The notes beneath the pieces were generated by a model. That model was not told the origin of the DNA and did not search any database. It saw only the letters and a list, made by a program, of their open reading frames with translations. Of a DNA stretch of 64,000 bases, positions 28,304-47,503 are shown one piece after another. Made by a program: the position numbers and the translations under genes. The number at the start of each line of letters is the position of its first letter. The stretch's first letter is position 1. Source of the DNA: Litchfieldia sinesaloumensis (lineage in GTDB: Bacteria > Bacillota > Bacilli > Bacillales > Bacillaceae_L); the NCBI RefSeq assembly GCF_900156865.1, contig NZ_LT732529.1, positions 4,082,511-4,146,510 on the forward strand, given 5' to 3'.

Positions 28304-29410
28304 TTATTTCGGCACTTCAAGATCTAAGGTCGTGCCTTTTCCAACTTCAGATTCTAAATGTAAGCTTCCATCGATACTTCGGGCACGTTCTTCCATGCTG
28401 AAGAGGCCAACGCCATTTCCTTTTTCGTCAGTCGTAAAGCCCTGTCCATTGTCACTTACTTTAACGGTAACTTTGGCTTCCTCTTCATGAATTGATACGA
28501 TGGCTTCTGCAACATTCGCATATTTTGCGATATTGGTTAAAGCCTCTTGGACCACTCGATAGATCGTTGTTTCTTTATGAATATCTAATCGTGTCTTTAA
28601 GGTACATTCAAATTCAACATTAATACCGTAATGCTGTGTGTAATGTTCAATATACTTCCGAAGAGCTGGTACGACACCGAGATCATCCAATACAGAAGGG
28701 CGGAGCTCCCATGCTAGGCCACGAATATCCTCCATCATAAAAGATACATCCTGACGCAGGCGTGAAAGACGTTCTTCTGGTTGTTCACTTAGTATTTGGT
28801 CAAGTTGAATTAGTATAGAAAACATGCTTTGACCGATTCCATCATGTAGTTCGCGTGAAAAGCGTTTGCGTTCTTCTTCCTGGATACTGATGACCCGTGT
28901 CATCATACTCTTCAATTCTTCTTGTGTTTCCTTCAATGCTGTAACTTCATGGCGGACTGCGAGGTATTGTTTTGGTCGGCCATTTTCAGAAAGAATGGGC
29001 ACTATGGTTGTATCAACCCAATAAAAAGAACCGTCCTTCGCTTTGTTCTGAATTTCACCTTGCCAAACATGTCCGGAGCCGATCGTACGCCACATGTCTT
29101 TCCAGAATTCCTTCGGATGATGACCGGAATTAATGATTCGGTGATCTTGTCCAAGTAACTCTTCCTTTGAATACTTCGAGATCTCACAGAACTTATTATT
29201 AATGTATTGGATTTTACCTTGACGGTCGGTAATAGCAACAATGGAGGACTCGTCCAATGCATAGGTTAAGTCCGCCAGGTGGCGCAATGATTTACCTACA
29301 TCCTCACGAAAAGTAGGATTCTCAATATGATCTTCTAGCTCAGCGAGGAGCTTGACAACGTTTGGACCGCCAATTTCCGATTGGTATTTTAGCCGATCAA
29401 TTTTATTCAA
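28304..29410 (-). CDS. nreB: PAS-containing sensor histidine kinase, NreB/NarX-like (HisKA_3)
   Basis: A 368-residue kinase. Residues 50-165 hold a PAS domain (VAITDRQGKIQYINNKFCEI, then WQGEIQNKAKDGSFYW). The HisKA_3 dimerisation domain has the phospho-acceptor in ELHDGIGQSM near residue 188. The C-terminal ATPase includes DNGQGF and GVGLFSMEERA. It has no membrane helices, so it acts in the cytosol like NreB. NreB carries four cysteines for an oxygen-sensing Fe-S cluster; here the PAS region has only one (Cys in KFCEIS), so a different cofactor or signal is likely. The TTG start overlaps the regulator gene by eight bases. Confidence 0.85.
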   Translation of the reverse strand: MNKIDRLKYQSEIGGPNVVKLLAELEDHIENPTFREDVGKSLRHLADLTYALDESSIVAITDRQGKIQYINNKFCEISKYSKEELLGQDHRIINSGHHPKEFWKDMWRTIGSGHVWQGEIQNKAKDGSFYWVDTTIVPILSENGRPKQYLAVRHEVTALKETQEELKSMMTRVISIQEEERKRFSRELHDGIGQSMFSILIQLDQILSEQPEERLSRLRQDVSFMMEDIRGLAWELRPSVLDDLGVVPALRKYIEHYTQHYGINVEFECTLKTRLDIHKETTIYRVVQEALTNIAKYANVAEAIVSIHEEEAKVTVKVSDNGQGFTTDEKGNGVGLFSMEERARSIDGSLHLESEVGKGTTLDLEVPK

Positions 29411-30056
29411 AATGCAGTAATCCTTTCTTCATTGCATATTTTACAAGCTCTGGTCGAGTTTTTAAACCAAGTTTCTCCATCAAATTACTTTTATGCGATT
29501 CAACCGTTTTTACACTAATAATTAAGTGCTCGGCAATTTCTTTATTTGAATAACCCTTAGCAATCCATTCGAGTACTTCCTTTTCACGTTCAGACAATAA
29601 TGCAAAGGAATCCGCGTTGTCCCCATTTTTTACTCGGTCTAAGTATCCGCCCATTAATACCTTCGTCGCAGAGGGAGTTAAATAGGCATTCCCAGTAGAA
29701 ACAGATTCAATTGCCCCAAGCAAATCATCGTGTGGTGCATTTTTTAAAATATAGCCAGATGCTCCAGCATGGATGGCTCTGAACAAGTACTCTTCGTCAT
29801 CATGCATGGTTAAGATGAGAATGGCTAATTCTGGCATAAGTTCGTGTAGTTCTTGAGTAGCCGTTAATCCATCTTTTCCATGTGGCATGCTTAAATCCAT
29901 GAGTACAACGTCAGGGTTTAATTCCTTTGCTTTTTTAATCGCTTCGTCACCTTCAGAAGCTTCCCCAATTACTTCTATATTATTTTTGCCGTTCAACAAC
30001 ATCATTAGTCCAGATCGAACTACGGCATGGTCATCAACAATCAATAATCTAACCAC
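29403..30056 (-). CDS. nreC: LuxR/NarL-type response regulator, NreC-like
   Basis: A 217-residue regulator with a receiver domain (acidic pocket IVDDH, phospho-acceptor in VVLMDLSMP, lysine in YILKNAP). A NarL/LuxR helix-turn-helix follows (LSEREKEVLEWIAKGYSNKE, then IISVKTVESHKSNLMEKL). GTG 30056 is chosen because GGGGAGG precedes it by six bases. It is partnered by the overlapping PAS kinase gene and diverges from the nitrate-reductase-like operon at 30247. NreC binds a TAGGG-N4-CCCTA-like palindrome in staphylococci, and similar sequences occur in this window. Confidence 0.88.
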   Translation of the reverse strand: MVRLLIVDDHAVVRSGLMMLLNGKNNIEVIGEASEGDEAIKKAKELNPDVVLMDLSMPHGKDGLTATQELHELMPELAILILTMHDDEEYLFRAIHAGASGYILKNAPHDDLLGAIESVSTGNAYLTPSATKVLMGGYLDRVKNGDNADSFALLSEREKEVLEWIAKGYSNKEIAEHLIISVKTVESHKSNLMEKLGLKTRPELVKYAMKKGLLHFE

Positions 30057-30168
30057 AGTATACCTCCCCACAAATCCTCAATAGTTTCATTATAACATGT
30101 CAACAGACGCTGTTCGAAAACCAATCGTTCAATAAATCGTTACAAATAAGGGATTTTTCATCCAAAGA

Positions 30169-30246: not shown

Positions 30247-31332
30247 ATGCAGGCGAGAGCTGCTGAAATCCAAAAGAAGCAGGCACCAGCTTATAATAAT
30301 GCATTTGCATCAAAGTTTGCCAAGTCCATGTTTTTATCTGTGTTAGGGTTGGCTATTTTATCTTTTATTGGAACAAGAATGTTTACCCATGTTGATTTGA
30401 ATCTTTACGGGTACATGGTTGGAACGATTGTCTTTCTTGGAGGTTTCTTTTATCGGTTCATCGCATGGGGAGAAAGACCGCCAACAAAGATTATTATCAA
30501 AAAAGGCTTGAAACTGTTAGTTAGAAAATCAACACCCAAAACATCTGTTGATCATTTAGCTACATATAACTTCATTTGGAATAGGGGAATTTACCGATGG
30601 ACCCAGCATATCTTAATCGGTTGGGGTTGCATCCTTTCCTGTTTGGTTACATTTCCACTTGTCTTTGGTTGGATGTATTTCACAATGGATGAAAACGGCT
30701 ATTACAACATCATTGCAATGGGAATTCAAATCATGACGGTACCCGCAGATGGTATCATCGCAAATCTTTCATATAATGCCTTAAATATAACAGCAATAAT
30801 GGTAATTGCAGGAGTTTGTATGGCTATGTATCGCCGTATGAAAAACCTTCAGGCACGAGCAGAGCAGAAGTTCATGTATGATTTACTGCCATTATACTTA
30901 CTGCTATTTGTTAGCATAACCGGGTTGCTTTTAACGTTTATGAATATTTTCATGCATGGCTGGGGTCAACCTGTTATGTCAATGATTCATCAATGGTCCG
31001 TCATTATTACGTTAATCTACCTGCCGTTCGGTAAGCTTGCCCATATTCCTTTCCGTCCAATGAGTGTTTTGGCGAGAAATTATCGCGAGCATTATGCAGA
31101 AAAGGAAACAAAAGAGTGTAAGGTTTGTGGTAATGGCTTTGTTTCTACAGAACAATCACAGGATGTAATTCATGTCCTTGATGTGAACGATATCCATTTT
31201 AAAACGAAGGAAGGTCATCATTTAGCAGAAATGTGTCTTCCATGTCGTAGAAAATACCGGATTGCGCAATTTTCCGGCTTCCCGACCCATGAGGTCAAAG
31301 TTAAGGAGGCAAATCAGAATGCAAAGGGATAA
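30247..31332 (+). CDS. Polytopic membrane cytochrome-b-like subunit with C-terminal CxxC pair
   Basis: A 361-residue protein, first gene of the molybdoenzyme operon. About six hydrophobic helices span residues 25-285. Histidines at helix ends (TQHILIGWG, FMHGWGQPV, MIHQWSVIITL, KLAHIPFRP) resemble the haem-ligating helices of NarI/HdrE-type cytochromes b, so it probably oxidises menaquinol. The cytosolic tail carries CKVCGNGF and, about 40 residues later, MCLPCRRKY: four cysteines able to bind zinc or iron. A strong GAGGAGG precedes ATG. I know no named family member with this combination. It overlaps the catalytic-subunit start by 14 bases. Confidence 0.7.
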   Translation: MQARAAEIQKKQAPAYNNAFASKFAKSMFLSVLGLAILSFIGTRMFTHVDLNLYGYMVGTIVFLGGFFYRFIAWGERPPTKIIIKKGLKLLVRKSTPKTSVDHLATYNFIWNRGIYRWTQHILIGWGCILSCLVTFPLVFGWMYFTMDENGYYNIIAMGIQIMTVPADGIIANLSYNALNITAIMVIAGVCMAMYRRMKNLQARAEQKFMYDLLPLYLLLFVSITGLLLTFMNIFMHGWGQPVMSMIHQWSVIITLIYLPFGKLAHIPFRPMSVLARNYREHYAEKETKECKVCGNGFVSTEQSQDVIHVLDVNDIHFKTKEGHHLAEMCLPCRRKYRIAQFSGFPTHEVKVKEANQNAKG

Positions 31333-33487
31333 GTTTTTTAAAGAAGAGAAGAATGTTAATCATCCAAACGAAAAGCTAATAAAAACACATTGCAGCTATT
31401 GCGGGATGCAGTGCGGAATGAACCTACGAGTAAATACAGTTACCAATAAAATCGTAGGGGTTGAACCTCGTTACGATTGGCCAGTAACTGTCGGAAAAAT
31501 GTGTCCGAAAGGTGTTACAGCCTACCAACAGACGAACCATCAGGATCGAATCTTAAAGCCGCTTATACGTGATGATGCATCATTAAAGGGAACGAAAGAA
31601 GGCTTTCGTGAAGCAAGTTGGGAAGAAGCGTACGAGTTAATCGTCAAAAACTTTAAGAAATTACAAGACGAGTACGGAAAGGATTCCTTATCAGTCTTCA
31701 GTGGAGTGTCAATGACAAATGAAAAATGTTATCTAACAGGTAAGTTTGCACGTGTGGCATTAGGAACTCGTTATATCGATTACAATGGTCGTTTTTGTAT
31801 GTCTAGTGCGGCTGGTGGATTCCTTCGTTCATTTGGGGTTGATCGTGGATCGACATTACCTTGGACGGATATCCATGAAACGGATTGCTTATTTATCGCA
31901 GGAAGTAATACAGCAGAGTGTCACCCAACGTCTATGTTCCGCGTTTGGAACGTCCAGGAAAGAGGAGGATACATCATTGTTGTTGACCCTCGTGAAACAC
32001 CAATAGCAAGAAGAGCGGATTTGCATTTAGATCTAAAACCAGGAACAGACTTAGCTCTAGCAAATGGAATCCTACATTTACTTATTGAAAATGGGTATAC
32101 AGATAACGAATTTATTGCGAACCATACAAATGGTTTTGAAGAAACGAAGGAACTTGTGAAGGAATTCACACCTGAATACACAAGTGAGTTAACAGGAGTG
32201 GCACCTGAGAAAATTATTCGGGCTGCAGAAATTTACGGAAAAGCGCCTAATGCTGTTGTTATGTTTGCTCGTGGTATTGAGCAGCAACATAAGGGTGTAG
32301 ACAATGTTTCTGCTTATACCAATATGGCACTTATTACTGGAAAAATCGGTCGACCAAAATCGGGCGTAGCTACTTTTACTGGGCAAGGGAACGGGCAAGG
32401 TGGTCGTGAACATGGACAAAAGTCAGATTTATTACCTGGCTATCGTAAAATCACAAATCCTGAGCATGTAAAAGAGGTGTGTAATGTTTGGGGGATTACT
32501 CCAGAGGAAATGCCAAAGCCAGGTGTATCTGCTTATGAAATGTTTGAACTAATGGAGGAAAAAACGATTCGTGGGTTATATCTTCTTTGTTCAAACCCAG
32601 CGGTATCTGCACCTAACTTAAACTTTGTCAGAAAAGCACTAAAATCACTCGACTTCATGGTGTGTGCTGACTTTTACTTATCAGAATCTGCAGAGTTTGC
32701 GGATGTGGTTCTTCCGTCTGTGACATGGTCTGAAGATGAAGGAACAGTTACAAATATTGAAGGGCGTATTATTAAAATCAATAAAGCCCAGGAACCGATT
32801 GGTGAATCTAAGCCGGACTGGCAAATGCAGGTCGAGCTTGCAGAACGTCTAGGTAGAGGCCAATATTTCTCACATTTAAAAACAGCCAAGGATGTAGCGG
32901 ATGAGTTCCGCCTTGCAAGTAAAGGTGGCTATGCTGACTACTACGGAGCAACATGGGAAAAAATCGATAAACAAGATGGAGTATTCTGGCCTTGCCGTGA
33001 TGAGAAAGACCAAGGAACACCACATATGTTCCTAGATAAAAAATTCTATCATCCAGATGGAAAAGCGAAAATATGTGCTTTGCCGTACCGTCCTCCTGCT
33101 GAAGAACCGGATCAAACATATCCACTGCGTTTAACAACAGGGCGTGTAGTGTATCACTATTTATCAGGTAACCAGACAAGACGTATTCCATTTTTAAGAG
33201 ATATGTGCCCTGAACCATATGTTGAGGTTCATCCGGAATTGGCTGCCAAATATGAGATCCAGCATGAAGAACGTGTTCGTCTATTTACTAGAAGGGGCGA
33301 AAGTATTTACAAAGTAAAAATTACGGAAGCAATCCGAAAGGATACTGTGTTTGTTCCTTACCATTTCGGTCATGAAGAGTCTATCAATCTACTAACAATT
33401 GCAGCACTTGATCCAATTTCAAGAATGCCGGAATTTAAGGCATGTGCTGCTCAGATTGAAAAATTAGTTGTAAAGAAGGTGCAGTAA
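31319..33487 (+). CDS. Molybdopterin oxidoreductase, nitrate-reductase-like catalytic subunit (NasC/NapA-type)
   Basis: A 722-residue bis-MGD enzyme. The N-terminal [4Fe-4S] site is C25-x2-C28-x3-C32 with a fourth cysteine in GKMCPKG. C160 in NGRFCMSSAAGG is the likely Mo ligand, as in NasC/NarB/NapA-type nitrate reductases; a selenocysteine would be expected in many formate dehydrogenases. The C-terminal region LTTGRVVYHYLSGNQTR is the MGD-binding domain. There is no Tat signal, so it is cytosolic. ATG 31319 follows AAGGAGG. Nitrate as substrate is inferred from the Cys motif, the adjacent NarK and NreBC; other oxo-anions remain possible. Confidence 0.87.
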   Translation: MQRDKFFKEEKNVNHPNEKLIKTHCSYCGMQCGMNLRVNTVTNKIVGVEPRYDWPVTVGKMCPKGVTAYQQTNHQDRILKPLIRDDASLKGTKEGFREASWEEAYELIVKNFKKLQDEYGKDSLSVFSGVSMTNEKCYLTGKFARVALGTRYIDYNGRFCMSSAAGGFLRSFGVDRGSTLPWTDIHETDCLFIAGSNTAECHPTSMFRVWNVQERGGYIIVVDPRETPIARRADLHLDLKPGTDLALANGILHLLIENGYTDNEFIANHTNGFEETKELVKEFTPEYTSELTGVAPEKIIRAAEIYGKAPNAVVMFARGIEQQHKGVDNVSAYTNMALITGKIGRPKSGVATFTGQGNGQGGREHGQKSDLLPGYRKITNPEHVKEVCNVWGITPEEMPKPGVSAYEMFELMEEKTIRGLYLLCSNPAVSAPNLNFVRKALKSLDFMVCADFYLSESAEFADVVLPSVTWSEDEGTVTNIEGRIIKINKAQEPIGESKPDWQMQVELAERLGRGQYFSHLKTAKDVADEFRLASKGGYADYYGATWEKIDKQDGVFWPCRDEKDQGTPHMFLDKKFYHPDGKAKICALPYRPPAEEPDQTYPLRLTTGRVVYHYLSGNQTRRIPFLRDMCPEPYVEVHPELAAKYEIQHEERVRLFTRRGESIYKVKITEAIRKDTVFVPYHFGHEESINLLTIAALDPISRMPEFKACAAQIEKLVVKKVQ

Positions 33488-34045
33488 ATGCAAAAAAGGC
33501 TATATTTAGAATTGGAAAACTGTATTGGATGCCGCTCTTGCCTTGCAGCCTGTACACAGTGTGGGGGACATGAAGAACGAAATCGAAACTATGTATATGA
33601 TGTCAATCCGCTTGTGAACAGACAGACTATGCCACTCATGTGTCTGCATTGTGTAAATCCTGCATGCGCTAGAAGCTGTCCGGCACAGGCAATCCAAATC
33701 CACGAGTCAGGCGCAGTCTTGTCTGCACTGGTTGAAAAATGCATTGGCTGCCAAAACTGTACGATTGCATGCCCATATGGCATACCAAAATTTGATGAAG
33801 AACAAAATCTAATGTACAAATGTGATCTGTGTATTGACCGTACAAAGGATAACATTCCGCCGATGTGTGCAAGTGTTTGTCCATCAAATACAATCCAATG
33901 GCTAAGTGATGAGGAAATTGAGGCTAAAAAACAAAGTCATAATCTCGACAATGGTAAATGGGTAACAAGCATGCCGCTTGAGGGAGAAACGAATGTAAAA
34001 ATTAGCTTACCTGGAATTTTACAAGGCATTGAGAAGTTATTTTAA
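33488..34045 (+). CDS. Four-cluster 4Fe-4S electron-transfer subunit
   Basis: A 185-residue ferredoxin-like protein of the NrfC/DmsB/HybA group. Four cysteine clusters are visible: CIGCRSCLAAC (C12-C22), CLHCVNPACARSCP, CIGCQNCTIACPYG and CDLCIDRT...CASVCP. It would wire the membrane cytochrome to the molybdoenzyme. It starts directly after the catalytic-subunit stop with GAAGGTG upstream, so expression is coupled. No signal peptide is present, placing it on the cytosolic side. Confidence 0.9.
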   Translation: MQKRLYLELENCIGCRSCLAACTQCGGHEERNRNYVYDVNPLVNRQTMPLMCLHCVNPACARSCPAQAIQIHESGAVLSALVEKCIGCQNCTIACPYGIPKFDEEQNLMYKCDLCIDRTKDNIPPMCASVCPSNTIQWLSDEEIEAKKQSHNLDNGKWVTSMPLEGETNVKISLPGILQGIEKLF

Positions 34046-34123
34046 GAATGGGTTCAAAGACGAGAATGAGAAAGCAACACATTTTCAATGGACTTTTGAA
34101 CAATCGCTATAGGAGTGATGGGA

Positions 34124-34651
34124 ATGCCGACTGATAAGAATAATCAAGTTCCTTTTAATGAGGATAATTACACACATAATATTAACCGCAATAATGAACG
34201 AAGCCTTGATCGACGTGGCTTCATGAAAACGTTGGTTGGAGCAGCAGGTGTCTTCGCTATTTCTTCACTACCGTGGGGAGCTGTAGCTGCAAAGGAATTA
34301 ATGGGCCTTGGAGAAAAGGAATACTCACATAAAAAAATAATCGATATAAGTAAGTTAGCCGTAGGTGATTCCACCGATTTCACCTTTCCTGGTGACCATG
34401 ATGATGCCATCTTAATTAGACTAGCTGAAAATAAATTCGTCGCTTATCAAAATGCATGTACCCATCTACGTTGCCCAGTTTTTTGGGTGAAGGAGGAGGG
34501 ACAAATGGTTTGTCCTTGCCACCACGGTTTCTTTGATGTAGAAACGGGTGCACCGACTGCAGGACCACCTCGTCGTCCGCTACCTGAAATCCAGGTGAAG
34601 GTTGAGAATGGAGCAGTTTATGCGGTGAAGGTGAAACGTTATGAGGCGTAG
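34124..34651 (+). CDS. Tat-exported Rieske iron-sulfur protein
   Basis: A 175-residue Rieske [2Fe-2S] protein. Residues 27-55 form a twin-arginine signal-anchor (SLDRRGFMKTLVGAAGVFA), placing the cluster outside the membrane. The ligands are in ACTHLRCPV and VCPCHHGFFD, the C-x-H ... C-x2-H pattern. ATG 34124 has AGGAG eight bases upstream. A Rieske protein inside a nitrate-reductase-like operon is unusual: respiratory NarGHI has none. It may take electrons from the quinol pool, or form a two-sided quinol oxidation site with the cytochrome-b-like subunit. Confidence 0.9.
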   Translation: MPTDKNNQVPFNEDNYTHNINRNNERSLDRRGFMKTLVGAAGVFAISSLPWGAVAAKELMGLGEKEYSHKKIIDISKLAVGDSTDFTFPGDHDDAILIRLAENKFVAYQNACTHLRCPVFWVKEEGQMVCPCHHGFFDVETGAPTAGPPRRPLPEIQVKVENGAVYAVKVKRYEA

Positions 34652-34826
34652 TTACCAAGGTGTACTTATCCTTTCTGTCATCTTGCTGTTAAATATCATC
34701 TTTACACAAAAAATGGTACATCAATTTTATTATGAAAACTATGTGAATACACTTATATTTTGCGGCTTAAACATGGTGTTGTTTCCGGTCGCATGGATTT
34801 TGTATAAAAAGTTGAAAAAGGCGTGA
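34641..34826 (+). CDS. Small two-helix membrane protein of the Rieske/molybdoenzyme operon
   Basis: A 61-residue protein with two hydrophobic helices, roughly residues 6-22 and 36-54, and a basic tail ending KKLKKA. It overlaps the Rieske gene by 11 bases and the next gene by one, so translation is coupled. It is probably an assembly or stabilising subunit. I do not recognise a family. Confidence 0.6.
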   Translation: MRRSYQGVLILSVILLLNIIFTQKMVHQFYYENYVNTLIFCGLNMVLFPVAWILYKKLKKA

Positions 34827-35143
34827 TGTTCATGAACAGCGAAACGTATCTTGATTTTTGTTTCATAAGAGAGGCAACTGGAAATTTCAAAGAAGAGATT
34901 CATGAAATTTTATCTAACCTTTTTAAAAGTATACGGTTAAAGTGGTACCTGGAGGAAAAGACGGAAGAGGGCATTGAGATTATCATTGCCGAGGTTAAAG
35001 GAATGAGCAGATGGCAATCGGAGGAAGATGCGATCGAATACATTGAAGCTCATGCAGACGAAGCCTTTTGGTCGTATCTTCAGGGCTATAAACTATTCAT
35101 CTATCCTGCTAAGAAAGGGTGTAGCAGCTGTGGAGTTAACTGA
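34826..35143 (+). CDS. Unknown small soluble protein, 105 aa, C-terminal CxxC
   Basis: The protein is mixed alpha/beta and acidic (EEKTEEGIEIIIAEVKGMS) and ends KKGCSSCGVN, a CxxC that could bind metal or act as a redox pair. The stop of the previous gene overlaps ATG 34826 (TGATG); ATG 34832 is an alternative start. I do not recognise it. Its place between the Rieske gene and NarK suggests a maturation or chaperone role for the complex, which is inference only. Confidence 0.55.
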   Translation: MFMNSETYLDFCFIREATGNFKEEIHEILSNLFKSIRLKWYLEEKTEEGIEIIIAEVKGMSRWQSEEDAIEYIEAHADEAFWSYLQGYKLFIYPAKKGCSSCGVN

Positions 35144-35417
35144 AATTAGAAGTTTGGAATCTTTTATTCTAGAAAAGGTGGAAGTTTCGATTTTAGATAA
35201 AGATGGAGAAGACAAAGCACCGTTTGTAAAAAAGAATATACGTAAAACAGAGCTTTGTCCGGACGGAACGCATCTCCGTATTTACTTTGACCGGCTGCAG
35301 TTCTTTGCAGTTCCTTTAACCGCAGAGGTAGCGATAAGTGATGAGTTTTGGTCAGCCTTTGATCAGGAAACTGGATTAACCTACGTTGTGAAAAAAGGAA
35401 GTGGTCGTGATGGCTAG
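35130..35417 (+). CDS. Unknown small soluble protein, 95 aa
   Basis: A 95-residue predicted beta-rich protein (VEVSILDKDGEDKAPF, GTHLRIYFDRLQFFAVPL) with one cysteine. I start at GTG 35130, which has AAAGGG about ten bases upstream and overlaps the previous gene by 14 bases. Its end overlaps the NarK start by eight bases. The tight overlaps place it firmly in the operon, but no family is recognised. Confidence 0.5.
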   Translation: MELTEIRSLESFILEKVEVSILDKDGEDKAPFVKKNIRKTELCPDGTHLRIYFDRLQFFAVPLTAEVAISDEFWSAFDQETGLTYVVKKGSGRDG

Positions 35418-36909
35418 AAAAATACAGCTTCCGCTTCAGACATTAAATCTTGTTGTAGGATTTATGGTTTGGGTACTCATTTCTTCTTTGCTACCGTTTA
35501 TGAAAGAGGATATTAATATTCCAGCAAACCAATTAGCTTTGGTAACTGCGATTCCCGTTATTCTTGGTTCAATCTTACGGATTCCGCTTGGATATTACGC
35601 GAATCAGTTTGGTGCGAGAATAATATTTTTAGTTAGTTTTATTTTATTGCTGTTTCCAGTTTATTATATTAGTATAGCTAATTCGGTAGCTGATCTCTTA
35701 ATAGGCGGATTATTCCTAGGGATTGGGGGCGCGGTTTTCTCCGTTGGTGTAACATCACTTCCTAAGTACTATCCAAAGGAAAAACACGGGTTTGTTAACG
35801 GAATTTATGGTGCGGGGAATCTTGGAACGGCGATTTCTACATTTGCAGCACCTGTGATTGCAACGCAAATCGGTTGGTCTTTAACTGTTCAACTCTATTT
35901 AGTTGTATTAGCATTGTTCATTTTGGCAAACTTCTTTTTAGGAGATAAGAAGGAAATAAAGGTTCAAACCCCGTTAATGGAGCAAATTAAGGGTGTCTAT
36001 AAAAATGAAAAACTTTGGTTATTAAGTTTGTTTTATTTTATTACATTTGGCTCTTTTGTTGCGTTTACAATCTATCTACCCAACTTTTTAGTAGAGAACT
36101 TTGGCTTAGATAAGGTGGACGCAGGGGTTAGAACAGCAGGATTTATCGTTCTTGCGACAATCATGCGACCTATTGGTGGCTGGTTAGCGGACCGTTTCCA
36201 TTCCTTAATACTCTTAATGTTTGTATTTGGATGCTATACTGTGTCAGCAATGATATTATCGTTTGCCCCATCAATTGGGTGGTATACAATAGGATGTTTA
36301 ACAATTGCTCTCTGCGCAGGAATTGGGAATGGGGTTATTTTTAAATTAGTGCCAATGTACTTCCAAAAACAAGCGGGGATTGTGAACGGAATTGTCTCTG
36401 CAATTGGAGGATTAGGTGGATTTTTCCCGCCAATTCTATTGGGGATTCTATACAACGTCACTGGACATTACGCGATTGGATTTATGGCGTTGTCAGAGGT
36501 AGCATTAGCAAGCTTAATTCTTGTTATATGGATGTATTTCAGTGGAAGAATGGAACTTGCGAAACAAGTCATTGACCATACTGCCGAAGGGATTATGGTT
36601 ACGGATTTACATGGAAAAATCATATCTGTGAATCCAGCGTTTACAAAGATTACAGGTTTTACCTCTGAAGAGATTGTTGGGAAAACGCCAAACGTCCTGA
36701 AATCTGGCAAACAACCAAAGGAGTTCTACGAGGGGCTCTGGACAAAAATTGAGACAGAAGGCTTTTGGCAAGGGCAGATTTGGAACAAACGAAAAGACGG
36801 GTCAAACTACTTGCAATGGTTAACGATTAGTGCAATTAAGAATGACTCAGGTGATGTCGTGCAATACGCTGGTATGCTTAGTGACATGACTGGAAAACAA
36901 GTTAAATAA
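35410..36909 (+). CDS. narK: NarK-type nitrate/nitrite MFS transporter fused to a C-terminal PAS domain
   Basis: A 499-residue protein. Residues 1-380 are a twelve-helix nitrate/nitrite porter: R57 in GSILRIPLG and the arginine in ATIMRPIGGW are the expected substrate residues. The two nitrate signatures are NGIYGAGNLGTA and VNGIVSAIGGLGGFFPP. Residues 385-497 form a cytosolic PAS domain (EGIMVTDLHGKIISVNPAFT, then WQGQIWNKRKDGSNY) directly after helix 12. Ordinary NarK proteins end near residue 395-460 without it. It closes the operon of the Rieske-linked molybdoenzyme. ATG 35410 follows AAAGGAAG. A paralogue with the same architecture lies at 46004. Confidence 0.92.
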   Translation: MARKIQLPLQTLNLVVGFMVWVLISSLLPFMKEDINIPANQLALVTAIPVILGSILRIPLGYYANQFGARIIFLVSFILLLFPVYYISIANSVADLLIGGLFLGIGGAVFSVGVTSLPKYYPKEKHGFVNGIYGAGNLGTAISTFAAPVIATQIGWSLTVQLYLVVLALFILANFFLGDKKEIKVQTPLMEQIKGVYKNEKLWLLSLFYFITFGSFVAFTIYLPNFLVENFGLDKVDAGVRTAGFIVLATIMRPIGGWLADRFHSLILLMFVFGCYTVSAMILSFAPSIGWYTIGCLTIALCAGIGNGVIFKLVPMYFQKQAGIVNGIVSAIGGLGGFFPPILLGILYNVTGHYAIGFMALSEVALASLILVIWMYFSGRMELAKQVIDHTAEGIMVTDLHGKIISVNPAFTKITGFTSEEIVGKTPNVLKSGKQPKEFYEGLWTKIETEGFWQGQIWNKRKDGSNYLQWLTISAIKNDSGDVVQYAGMLSDMTGKQVK

Positions 36910-36911
36910 GC

Positions 36912-36948
36912 AAAAAAATGAATCCTTTTTATAGGGATTCATTTTTTT
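36912..36948. terminator. Bidirectional terminator between narK-PAS and the GAF gene
   Basis: AAAAAAATGAATCC / GGGATTCATTTTTTT form a long stem with an A-run and a T-run on opposite sides; it overlaps the end of the convergent GAF gene. Confidence 0.9.
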
Positions 36949-37370
36949 AATGTAGCAAATTCATCTGCTACTTTTTTTAGAAGGTCGACTTGCTCAGTTG
37001 TATATTTAACTTCAGTGCGAGAGCCAATCAGAAGGACAGCACATACTTTGCTATTCACATTAATAGGGACCGCTACAGCTGAAACTAGATTCTCTGCTAG
37101 CATTATTGGATATTGAAGACGAGTTCGCTGTCGGTCTGGTGTGTCCATATCGAGGATCATTGTTGTTCCAAAGCGAACAACTGAGCCAGAGAGTCCTTTT
37201 CCAGGTCGTATCACCATATTTTTAAAGCGGTTATTTGTATAACCATATGCGTATTCCCAACGGATGGTTTGACTACTTTGATCAACGTTTGCAATTGCAG
37301 AGAAATCACTTGAGGTGTTTGTACACAAATCATGAAGTTTTTCTTCTATTTCTATCTGTAATGCTTCCAT
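36939..37370 (-). CDS. nreA: GAF-domain protein, probable nitrate receptor NreA homologue
   Basis: A 143-residue protein that is essentially one GAF domain (AIANVDQSSQTIRWEYAYGY, then GLSGSVVRFGTTMILDMDTP, then VSAVAVPINVNSKVCAVLLI). In Staphylococcus, NreA is a GAF protein of about this length that binds nitrate and controls NreB phosphorylation. Here it lies next to a NarK gene and about 7 kb from the nreBC-like pair, so it is a good NreA candidate. AAGGAGAG precedes ATG 37370. Identity rests on domain, size and context; no ligand residues were verified. Confidence 0.72.
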   Translation of the reverse strand: MEALQIEIEEKLHDLCTNTSSDFSAIANVDQSSQTIRWEYAYGYTNNRFKNMVIRPGKGLSGSVVRFGTTMILDMDTPDRQRTRLQYPIMLAENLVSAVAVPINVNSKVCAVLLIGSRTEVKYTTEQVDLLKKVADEFATLKK

Positions 37371-37541: not shown

Positions 37542-37681
37542 TGTTGGAGTGTTTTACGAGGGGTAAATCACGGATGAATAAATAGGGGAATTTGGAGCAA
37601 ATATTCAGGAATTCCCCCGATATTAAGTTTTTACTATTGGTTGTATGCTTATAGTATAAAGTTTTGACGGGGGGATTTATA

Positions 37682-38416
37682 ATGTCAATGATGATTGCAC
37701 AGGAACTAAATAGAGAGATTCCTCACATAGAGTCAATTAACGAAAGCATTAATCAATTTCTATCAGATGAAAATTTAAATAAATTACAAAGCGTTATGCA
37801 TATACGAAAAGTAGCTGCAGGAACTCACCTTTTTTGGGATGGTGAGGAAGCTGAAAAGATGTACTATATCATCTCAGGAAGAGTTAAATTGCGAGCATCC
37901 TCTGAAAGAGGTAAGGATTTCTTATTATCCATTAAGGAAAAAGGAAGTCTAATTGGAGAATTCGGTGGATTCACTGGAAAGCTCTATTACAATTACCGTG
38001 CAGATGTAGAAGAAGAAACTGAGATAGGTATTATCCATATCAATGACCTGAAAAAGTTATTATACCAGTTTGGAAATTTTGCAGTGGAATTTATGAGTTG
38101 GATTGGTTGGACACAACGTATCATGCAGAATAAATTATATGATTTCCTATTCTTTGACAAGCAGGGGGCACTGGCTTCTACGTTGATAAAATTAACGACA
38201 ACACATGGTGTCAAATGTAAGGATGGTATTTTAATTGGAATTGAACTCACTAATAAAGACTTAGGTGATTTCATTGGAACCACTCGTGAAAGTGTTAACC
38301 GCCTTTTAAATGGCTGGAAAAGAGAAGGAATCGTAGAAATGTATGACCATAAGGTCGTCATTCTTCAGATGGAACGACTATATGAAATTTGTGAGTACAC
38401 AGGTGGTGTACACTAA
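37682..38416 (+). CDS. Crp/Fnr-family regulator without Fe-S cysteine clusters
   Basis: A 244-residue regulator. A cyclic-nucleotide-binding-like beta-roll spans residues 40-130 (YYIISGRVKLRASS, GSLIGEFGGFTG), and a winged helix includes DLGDFIGTTRESVNRLLNGW near residues 199-218. Unlike Bacillus subtilis Fnr it has no C-terminal cysteine cluster and no N-terminal one; only two scattered cysteines are seen (VKCKDG, EICEYT). It may answer another signal or oligomerise without a cluster. ATG 37682 has GGGGGG upstream. It sits beside the GAF and NarK genes, so it probably belongs to nitrate or anaerobic control. Confidence 0.85.
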   Translation: MSMMIAQELNREIPHIESINESINQFLSDENLNKLQSVMHIRKVAAGTHLFWDGEEAEKMYYIISGRVKLRASSERGKDFLLSIKEKGSLIGEFGGFTGKLYYNYRADVEEETEIGIIHINDLKKLLYQFGNFAVEFMSWIGWTQRIMQNKLYDFLFFDKQGALASTLIKLTTTHGVKCKDGILIGIELTNKDLGDFIGTTRESVNRLLNGWKREGIVEMYDHKVVILQMERLYEICEYTGGVH

Positions 38417-45788: not shown

Positions 45789-46003
45789 AAAAACCACCTC
45801 CACGATCATTGTAAACCGGCTAAAGTATGCAAATCAGTGGATAATGTCATCATCTTACATGACATTTGTCATTAGGACACAGGGACAGGCTAAGTTTACT
45901 TGGAAAACAGAACTGTCAATTGAAAAAAGTATGTTTTATTTTTAGAGGAATTCCGTAAACTAGGGAAAATATGTAGAGATTGTTTGGAGGAGGAGTACGA
46001 CGT

Positions 46004-47503
46004 ATGAAGACGCAAAAATTGCAACTGCCACTTCAAACCGGAAGTTTAGTTGTAGGCTTTATGGTGTGGGTGATTCTTTCTTCCCTTATGGCAAGTATTA
46101 AACAAGATATCCCCTTAACGGATAACGAAACGGCAATGGTCACAGCTGTTCCAGTTATTTTAGGCTCACTGTTGCGAATCTTATTAGGATATTGGACTAA
46201 TAAATTTGGAGCAAGATGGTTATTTTTCATTGGATTTGTTATCTTAATTCTTCCGATTTTTTATATTAGTATTGCAGACTCGATGTTTGACTTGATTCTG
46301 GGAGGACTTGTACTGGGAGTCGGGGGAGCACTATTTTCGATTGGGGTTACCTCGCTCCCGAAGTACTACCCGAAAGAACGTCATGGATTTGTAAACGGTA
46401 TTTACGGTGCTGGTAACATCGGTACGGCAATCACCTCTTTTGCAGCGCCTGCACTTGCAGTAAGTATTGGATGGCAGAACACCGTTCGGTTATTTTTAAT
46501 TCCTGTTATTCTATTTGCTTTGTTAAACTTTTTGTTAGGTGACAGGAAGGAACCTAAGGTTAATAAACCATTAAACGAACAAATTAAGAGTGTATATAAA
46601 AATGAAAAACTGTGGTTCATTAGCTTATTTTACTTTGTAACTTTCGGTTCGTTTGTAGCTTTTACTGTATATCTGCCGAACTTCCTAGTTTCTTATTTTG
46701 GATTAACGTCAGTGGACGCCGGTTTGCGAACAGCTGGATTTATCACACTGGCAACCCTTATGCGACCGGTAGGAGGCTGGCTGGGAGATAAGTTTAATCC
46801 CTATCTCATTCTGTTTATCGTCTTTAACTTCATTACATTTGCTGGCGTACTCTTGGCTTTTACACCGGATATTGTTCTATATACAATTGGATGCTTGCTC
46901 GTATCACTTTTTGCTGGAATTGGTAATGGGACCATATTCAAGCTGGTACCGTATTACTTTTCAAAGCAAGCTGGGATTGTCAACGGGATAGTATCTGCAA
47001 TGGGGGGCCTAGGAGGATTTTTCCCGCCAATTGTTCTGTCAATTGTGTTTGGGATTACAGGGCACTATGCAATTGGATTTATGTCGCTTGCGATGTTTGC
47101 GTTACTCAGCTCTGTATTCGTTGTTTGGATGTTCTATACGGAACGAATCCAAACTGAAGCAAAAGTGATTGAAAATGTCGCCCAGGGCATGATGGTCACG
47201 GATCCAAAAGGTGTTATTAAAAAGGTTAACCATGCGTTTACGACTGTTACAGGCTATCAACCAGAAGAAGCAATTGGGAAGAAACCAAGTCTACTTCGTT
47301 CTGGTAAGCATGATTCCGCATTCTATGACCAAATGTGGGATACCATACGTAGCAAGGGATATTGGCAGGGAGAAATCTGGAACAAGCGTAAAAATAACGA
47401 ATTGTATTTGGAATGGTTAACGATTAGTGAAGTGAAAAATGAAGCTGGCGAAGTTAAATACTATGTAGGTCTGTTCAATGACTTAACTGAAAAAGATGTG
47501 TGA
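46004..47503 (+). CDS. narK: Second NarK-type nitrate/nitrite transporter with C-terminal PAS domain
   Basis: A 499-residue paralogue of the protein at 35410, equal in length. It has the substrate arginines in GSLLRILLGYW and ATLMRPVGGW, and the nitrate signatures NGIYGAGNIGTA and VNGIVSAMGGLGGFFPP. The PAS domain spans about residues 385-497 (QGMMVTDPKGVIKKVNHAFT, then WQGEIWNKRKNNELY). ATG 46004 follows GGAGGAGGAG. It lies upstream of the hemerythrin-like and narGHJI genes, with a terminator between, so it probably supplies nitrate to NarGHI. GGAATTCC at 45947 recalls the core of the NreC-like sites. Confidence 0.92.
   Translation: MKTQKLQLPLQTGSLVVGFMVWVILSSLMASIKQDIPLTDNETAMVTAVPVILGSLLRILLGYWTNKFGARWLFFIGFVILILPIFYISIADSMFDLILGGLVLGVGGALFSIGVTSLPKYYPKERHGFVNGIYGAGNIGTAITSFAAPALAVSIGWQNTVRLFLIPVILFALLNFLLGDRKEPKVNKPLNEQIKSVYKNEKLWFISLFYFVTFGSFVAFTVYLPNFLVSYFGLTSVDAGLRTAGFITLATLMRPVGGWLGDKFNPYLILFIVFNFITFAGVLLAFTPDIVLYTIGCLLVSLFAGIGNGTIFKLVPYYFSKQAGIVNGIVSAMGGLGGFFPPIVLSIVFGITGHYAIGFMSLAMFALLSSVFVVWMFYTERIQTEAKVIENVAQGMMVTDPKGVIKKVNHAFTTVTGYQPEEAIGKKPSLLRSGKHDSAFYDQMWDTIRSKGYWQGEIWNKRKNNELYLEWLTISEVKNEAGEVKYYVGLFNDLTEKDV

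Follow-up and report, generated by a model that had tools for sequence, protein, structure and literature searches.

A putative nitrate/nitrite transporter joined to a NifL-type PAS domain in Litchfieldia sinesaloumensis and its relatives

Analysis of a 64,000-nucleotide stretch of the L. sinesaloumensis genome (the window) identifies NarK1-PAS (35401..36909, + strand), a putative nitrate/nitrite transporter of the MFS type with a C-terminal PAS domain of the NifL type. The fusion is old and widespread among Bacillus relatives, and it is under purifying selection. We propose that a flavin redox switch on NarK-PAS gates nitrate entry, a reading that could with about equal probability prove right or wrong. 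An earlier note on this DNA had suggested either that the PAS domain gates transport or that the porter acts as a co-sensor; the former, in the shape of redox gating, is the better supported of the two, in part, by a NifL-like PAS domain that keeps most of the predicted flavin contacts.

Transporter, junction and PAS domain

The mechanical start of NarK1-PAS is a GTG at 35401, which gives a product of 502 amino acids; the ATG at 35410, the start in the earlier note, is plausible and gives 499. That note had described a NarK-type porter running directly into a full PAS domain, and so it is: the open reading frame is intact, with neither stop nor frameshift, and matches Pfam MFS_1 at residues 17-342 (146 bits) and PAS_9 at residues 396-497 (60.5 bits, cut-off 27). 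By sequence, the transporter is best called NarK-like, and membership of the NCBIfam NarK family TIGR00886 is not claimed, its score being 227.9 bits against a cut-off of 311.7; NarK of the B. subtilis group (229) and NarT of the Staphylococcus type (197) also miss this cut-off, which therefore omits close kin bearing the name. The full AlphaFold model (mean pLDDT 80.5; built from 46 sequences, namely two from the window and 44 of the best 80 named loci described below) is helical throughout to residue 392, and Foldseek ranks 1-9 of its transporter part are NarK and nitrite extrusion protein 2 (4iu8, which we take to be NarU). In an aligned set of 64 fused and 17 PAS-less rows, R256 is kept in 81/81 and R60 in 79/81; by an equivalence drawn by eye, R60 and R256 are presumably the two substrate-site arginines, R89 and R305 in NarK numbering. 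The fold, the aligned arginines and the Gly-rich motifs are common to NarK-PAS and to NarK and NarU of E. coli and NarT of Staphylococcus, of the NNP family of the MFS; nitrate/nitrite transport is the putative function of NarK1-PAS. The fused form differs from these transporters in being about 120 residues longer.

The last transporter helix leads to the PAS domain through residues 357-392 (36469..36576, + strand), the presumed coupling element, which is seen in the model only. This helix is unbroken there and the first PAS strand starts at residue 397, a reading that covers helix continuity and not the relative placing of the two halves. From G355 to T401 the spacing is 47 residues in 64/64 fused rows, but we discarded this fixed length as a special sign of the junction because most of the protein is also free of insertions and deletions.

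The PAS domain itself spans residues ~389-499 (36565..36897, + strand). In the PDB, phmmer ranks 3ewk (6e-25), which we take to be MmoS, and NifL PAS1 (2gj3, 3.4e-22) highest; LOV proteins come after these, interspersed with Aer (8dik). A Foldseek search with the PAS model (mean pLDDT 87.9) returns NifL at ranks 1-3, with 2gj3 at 1.1 A and 36% identity, and then a Colwellia PAS and LOV domains, LOV entries making up most of the list after NifL. Because LOV (FMN) domains thus rank right behind NifL and ahead of Aer, these searches do not settle the flavin type.

Eight flavin contacts of NifL PAS1, as listed in a passage of PMC8063818, map to T401, G405, P430, K440, Y443, W447, I450 and N462 of NarK1 (NifL numbering being chain number + 20, with which all eight contacts fall on the right residue type). 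Y443, W447 and N462 (NifL Tyr83, Trp87 and Asn102) are kept in 64/64 fused rows and T401 (Thr41) in 63/64; Gly stands at the Ala45 position in 61/64 (G405), Ile in 50/64 and Leu in 10/64 at the Leu90 position (I450), and Pro in 63/64 (P430) at the position of Glu70, a listed flavin-ring contact. Five of the seven ring contacts (Thr41, Ala45, Glu70, Tyr83, Trp87, Leu90 and Asn102) are the same or conservative, Ala45 and Glu70 being replaced; Arg80 is not kept in the fused rows (K440 in NarK1). W447 and N462 correspond to the F-alpha Trp and the Asn contacts of FAD-binding PAS domains. Equally invariant are several positions without a listed flavin role, namely I407, N411, F414, T418, G419, W456, G458 and Y489. 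A passage of PMC10468136 presents NifL, MmoS and Aer as FAD redox sensors and names their hosts, all signalling proteins, as histidine kinases and a chemoreceptor; the host of NarK PAS is a transporter. The Trp, Asn, Tyr and Thr contacts of this group are kept in NarK PAS, whereas NifL Glu70 is not. Residues and model together suggest that NarK1 PAS is able to hold a flavin, predicted to be of the FAD type.

The motifs that the earlier note had seen in common with the kinase at 28304 are borne out (SG-KQ-PKEF and WQGQIWNKRKDGS in NarK, SG-HH-PKEF and WQGEIQNKAKDGS in the kinase). Sharing them does not set this pair apart: in one MAFFT alignment of the 22 PAS_9 matches of the genome, the Trp / Trp-x-Gly / Asn core occurs in four, namely both NarK-PAS proteins, the kinase and a protein whose domain order, read by eye, is PAS-PAS-GGDEF-EAL, and is missing from the other 18. 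A protein of the same by-eye architecture at another locus (L161, 4177-6270) has a PAS 52% identical to NarK PAS and is a possible source of the fused domain; a PAS-GGDEF protein at locus L019 has one 47% identical.

In the proposed mechanism, the PAS domain would bind FAD in the cytoplasm and would be altered by oxidation or reduction of the flavin; the unbroken helix would pass this change to the C-terminal MFS bundle, such that nitrate uptake would be open in the reduced (anoxic) cell and shut in the oxidised cell. Such gating would match, at the post-translational level, the O2 control that NreBC or Fnr exert on transcription.

Gene neighbourhood and competing readings

NarK1-PAS stands after a row of + strand genes (30247..35417) for a cytochrome b-like protein, a NasC/FdhA-like Mo enzyme, a 4Fe-4S protein, a Rieske protein and two small open reading frames, the last of which overlaps the NarK1 start. 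Against NCBIfam NasC the Mo enzyme reaches 879 of the 1100 bits that the curated cut-off demands, and against formate dehydrogenase alpha it reaches 661.8 of 666.25; since both scores fall short, we call it only a likely nitrate reductase. The row from 30247 to 34651, in which the Rieske protein has a twin-arginine-like leader by eye, perhaps encodes a membrane-linked nitrate reductase of unusual make-up. On the - strand lie an NreB-like histidine kinase with an FAD-type PAS core (28304..29410), in whose first 160 residues the four-Cys Fe-S motif of staphylococcal NreB is absent, an NreC/NarL-like response regulator (29403..30071) and, convergent with NarK1, an NreA-like GAF protein (36939..37370; 102.5 bits against NF038250, under the cut-off of 175); a Crp/Fnr-type regulator follows (37664..38416, + strand). 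Further along, a paralogue of the same layout, NarK2-PAS (45980..47503, + strand), 61% identical to NarK1-PAS, is found upstream of narGHJI, so that within this one 64-kb window the two NarK-PAS paralogues adjoin different reductase-type gene sets.

A scan of named genomes yielded 246 stretches that encode a relative. We kept the best 80, each reaching at least query residue 497 at 63-93% identity; the scan is biased to fused forms because one of its search words came from the PAS domain and another from right beside it. Within 8 kb on each side, by thresholds of our own setting and with some loci cut by contig ends, 77 of these best 80 adjoin nar genes (35/80) or a NasC-like Mo enzyme (42/80). 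The locus types comprise 33 with NasC-like enzyme, NreB and NreC, 33 with nar genes, NreB and NreC, seven with NasC-like enzyme alone, two with NasC-like enzyme and NreB only, two with nar genes alone and three with none of these. In all 33 of the Nar-type loci the first 160 residues of the NreB-like kinase contain the four-Cys motif, which is found in none of the 33 Nas-type loci; each of the latter has instead one kinase with an FAD-type core, as in the window. Twenty-eight loci (L041, L043-L068 and L094) have a second, short kinase-like open reading frame soon after narK-PAS, about 214-259 amino acids long and lacking the FAD-type core.

Carriers contact DcuS in transceptor fashion, and the PAS domain might likewise report transport state or nitrate to NreABC, for example through contact with NreB or NreA. 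The presence of both NreB and NreC in the flanks of 66 of the best 80 loci fits this reading, as does the run of nar, NreA, NreB, NreC and NarK-PAS that is consecutive on one strand, to the flank limit, in 33 of those 66. We nevertheless consider it unlikely: both NreB and NreC are missing from the 8-kb flanks in 12 of the 80 loci (they may lie elsewhere in the genome), and four Staphylococcus-type loci keep a Cys-motif NreABC beside a NarT without PAS, the same two observations that make the co-sensor idea of the earlier note the weaker one; moreover, the difference in kinase between Nar-type and Nas-type loci leaves NarK-PAS without one fixed partner.

A docking or dimerisation role, in which the PAS domain would hold the transporter at the reductase or at another NarK and any cofactor would be structural, agrees with the dimeric state given for NifL PAS1 in part of PMC8063818 and with the 77 loci that lie by nar genes or a NasC-like enzyme. 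It is a rather poor prospect, as it leaves the invariance of residues matching flavin contacts unexplained and would have one PAS type serve two different sets of reductase-type genes, the NasC-like and the NarGHI set.

PAS folds accommodate a variety of ligands, and the LOV entries that dominate the fold search behind NifL add to the case for another signal, whether haem-bound O2 or NO, blue light (LOV) or nitrate. This is improbable from the composition of the domain: NarK1 PAS has no Cys, and hence not the reactive Cys of LOV domains that forms the flavin adduct, and its two His residues (393 and 404) lie outside the 440-453 helix of the model. With the PAS domain of 59/64 fused rows likewise free of Cys, a LOV adduct is unlikely, and nothing in the Cys and His content of NarK1 PAS points to a haem or nitrate site.

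Distribution, history and selection

The earlier note had called transporter-PAS fusions rare, which does not hold for this one: it is present in 36/250 genomes drawn from the class, 34 of them with a full-length fusion (36 matches) and two with partial or contig-cut forms (rows counted by hand). Confinement to one strain, which the note had named as grounds for refutation, is excluded by this spread and by the family sample, in which fused NarK occurs in 9/9 genomes of the same genus (its own included) and in 0/8 others. At a threshold of 1e-40 the class sample has a match in 94/250 genomes, with a PAS-less relative at 50-69% identity in 20/250, and the phylum sample has one in 6/299, all six inside the class; other phyla were covered through named contigs and plasmids. 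The best 80 of the 246 named stretches are mostly from Bacillaceae, Planococcaceae (Caryophanaceae) and Paenibacillaceae. Two of the 80 are labelled with names of other phyla, Pseudomonas (L057) and Arthrobacter (L104); both are typical Bacillales loci and probably represent mislabelled or contaminated assemblies. A replicon of 1.4 Mb filed as a plasmid of Niallia taxi (NZ_CP102590.1) carries a NarK-PAS relative at 243615-245111 (63% identity, query residues 1-497), where no gene is listed.

A first tree, restricted to the transporter part (81 rows from 152 open reading frames, the fused ones thinned at 90% identity and all 17 PAS-less ones kept), needs five changes of PAS state. So does a more careful tree, which has six PAS-less NarK as its root and 62 rows after removal of four long ones (one fused and three without PAS) and of 15 other fused ones; four of its five changes are forced by starred branches, and trees with a single change are found in 0/200 bootstraps. 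AU tests reject the fused rows as a single clade (p 0.0006) and also eight nested PAS-less rows as a single clade (p 0.014, for a group chosen after the tree was seen). With a PAS-less NarK root, the most parsimonious history has a single gain and four losses, of which three lie under starred branches and the fourth (L147) is weak.

Since they fall inside the fused clade, the PAS-less NarT of the Staphylococcus type and NarK of the B. subtilis group look like later losses of the PAS domain. One PAS-less pair is L149 and L150; the gene order of L150, read by eye, is ywiB-argS-narK-fnr-ywiC-arfM-narG, some of these names being our own presumption, and its YwiB is nearly identical to 1r0u, presumably a B. 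subtilis protein, on which grounds it is placed in the B. subtilis group. Loci L151-L154 carry nar genes, nreABC and a PAS-less narT, and the sole solved relatives of NreA from L153 and L154 are NreA structures, which we take to be staphylococcal, and sensors built from NreA; gene content and these relatives are the basis for the name Staphylococcus-type. The tree row nearest to them, L162 (support 94/84), keeps the PAS domain in an identical operon order. In eight PAS-less loci, searches with PAS queries at E 10 found no remnant of the domain downstream of the stop; NarK matches run past a stop in L150 and L154.

Against the four closest relatives (92-93% identical), dN/dS is 0.026-0.041 for the PAS domain in three, the other being dS-saturated, and 0.027-0.033 for the MFS part (dS above 1). 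Against four relatives of 80-84% identity from other genera, pN/pS is ~0.22 for the PAS domain vs ~0.11 for the MFS part, the PAS domain evolving about twice as fast. That the domain is a passenger without a role, as its repeated loss from a retained transporter might suggest, is very improbable given that purifying selection acts on it much as on the MFS part when the closest relatives are compared, and that its pocket residues are invariant across families.

Relation to known systems and implications

MFS transporters with fused CBS, CNBD, PAS and UspA domains are mentioned in a passage of the review PMC10710835, which cites Willson et al. 2019. MFS-PAS as a class is therefore already in print, and NarK-PAS is a further variant of that general design; neither NarK-PAS nor flavin is named in the passages of the review, and the list of Willson et al. 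2019 may include NarK-PAS itself. No published NarK-PAS is among the matches listed for literature on transporters, NarK/NarT, oxygen control, NifL and B. subtilis narK. PMC3475470 lists a narK of 1500 bp for B. azotoformans and a narK3 of 1503 bp for B. bataviensis, and there the term PAS occurs solely within a reference. In 33 of the best 80 NarK-PAS loci the operon place is that of NarT and its like, next to nar genes and nreABC. Paracoccus NarK, a NarK1-NarK2 fusion according to part of PMC5217062, also contains NarK, but joins two transporters. Alphaproteobacterial plasmids gave matches that reach into the PAS region; the one inspected lies within the first half of a 2712-bp coding sequence that fits such a NarK1-NarK2 fusion, and we set it aside as a probable case of the latter.

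The closest functional parallel to the proposed switch is NarK2 of M. tuberculosis, a NarK-type transporter whose activity follows redox state (PMC3445494, in part); unlike for NarK-PAS, the word PAS is absent from that paper, and a passage in it calls the mechanism by which oxygen inactivates NarK2 unknown. The same paper cites Hernandez and Rowe 1988, whose title calls O2 inhibition of nitrate uptake a general regulatory mechanism. As O2 also shuts NarK2, with no PAS mentioned, a PAS domain is unnecessary for redox control in general, and its loss in at least three lineages, those under starred branches, indicates that it is dispensable.

We tentatively extend the flavin redox switch to the whole clade, though the extension is somewhat doubtful: the ancestral nitrate transporter of the Bacillales clade would have been gated by flavin redox state, B. 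subtilis NarK and Staphylococcus NarT would have lost the switch, and the PAS domain would be the first identified sensor for O2 inhibition of nitrate uptake. If this is true, the fusion could explain the shut-off of nitrate uptake under oxygen and would clearly exemplify the control of a secondary transporter by a sensor domain. NarK-PAS, in which a predicted flavin-type sensor is joined to the last helix, offers a single protein on which O2 inhibition may be tested, its PAS-less sisters serving as natural controls.
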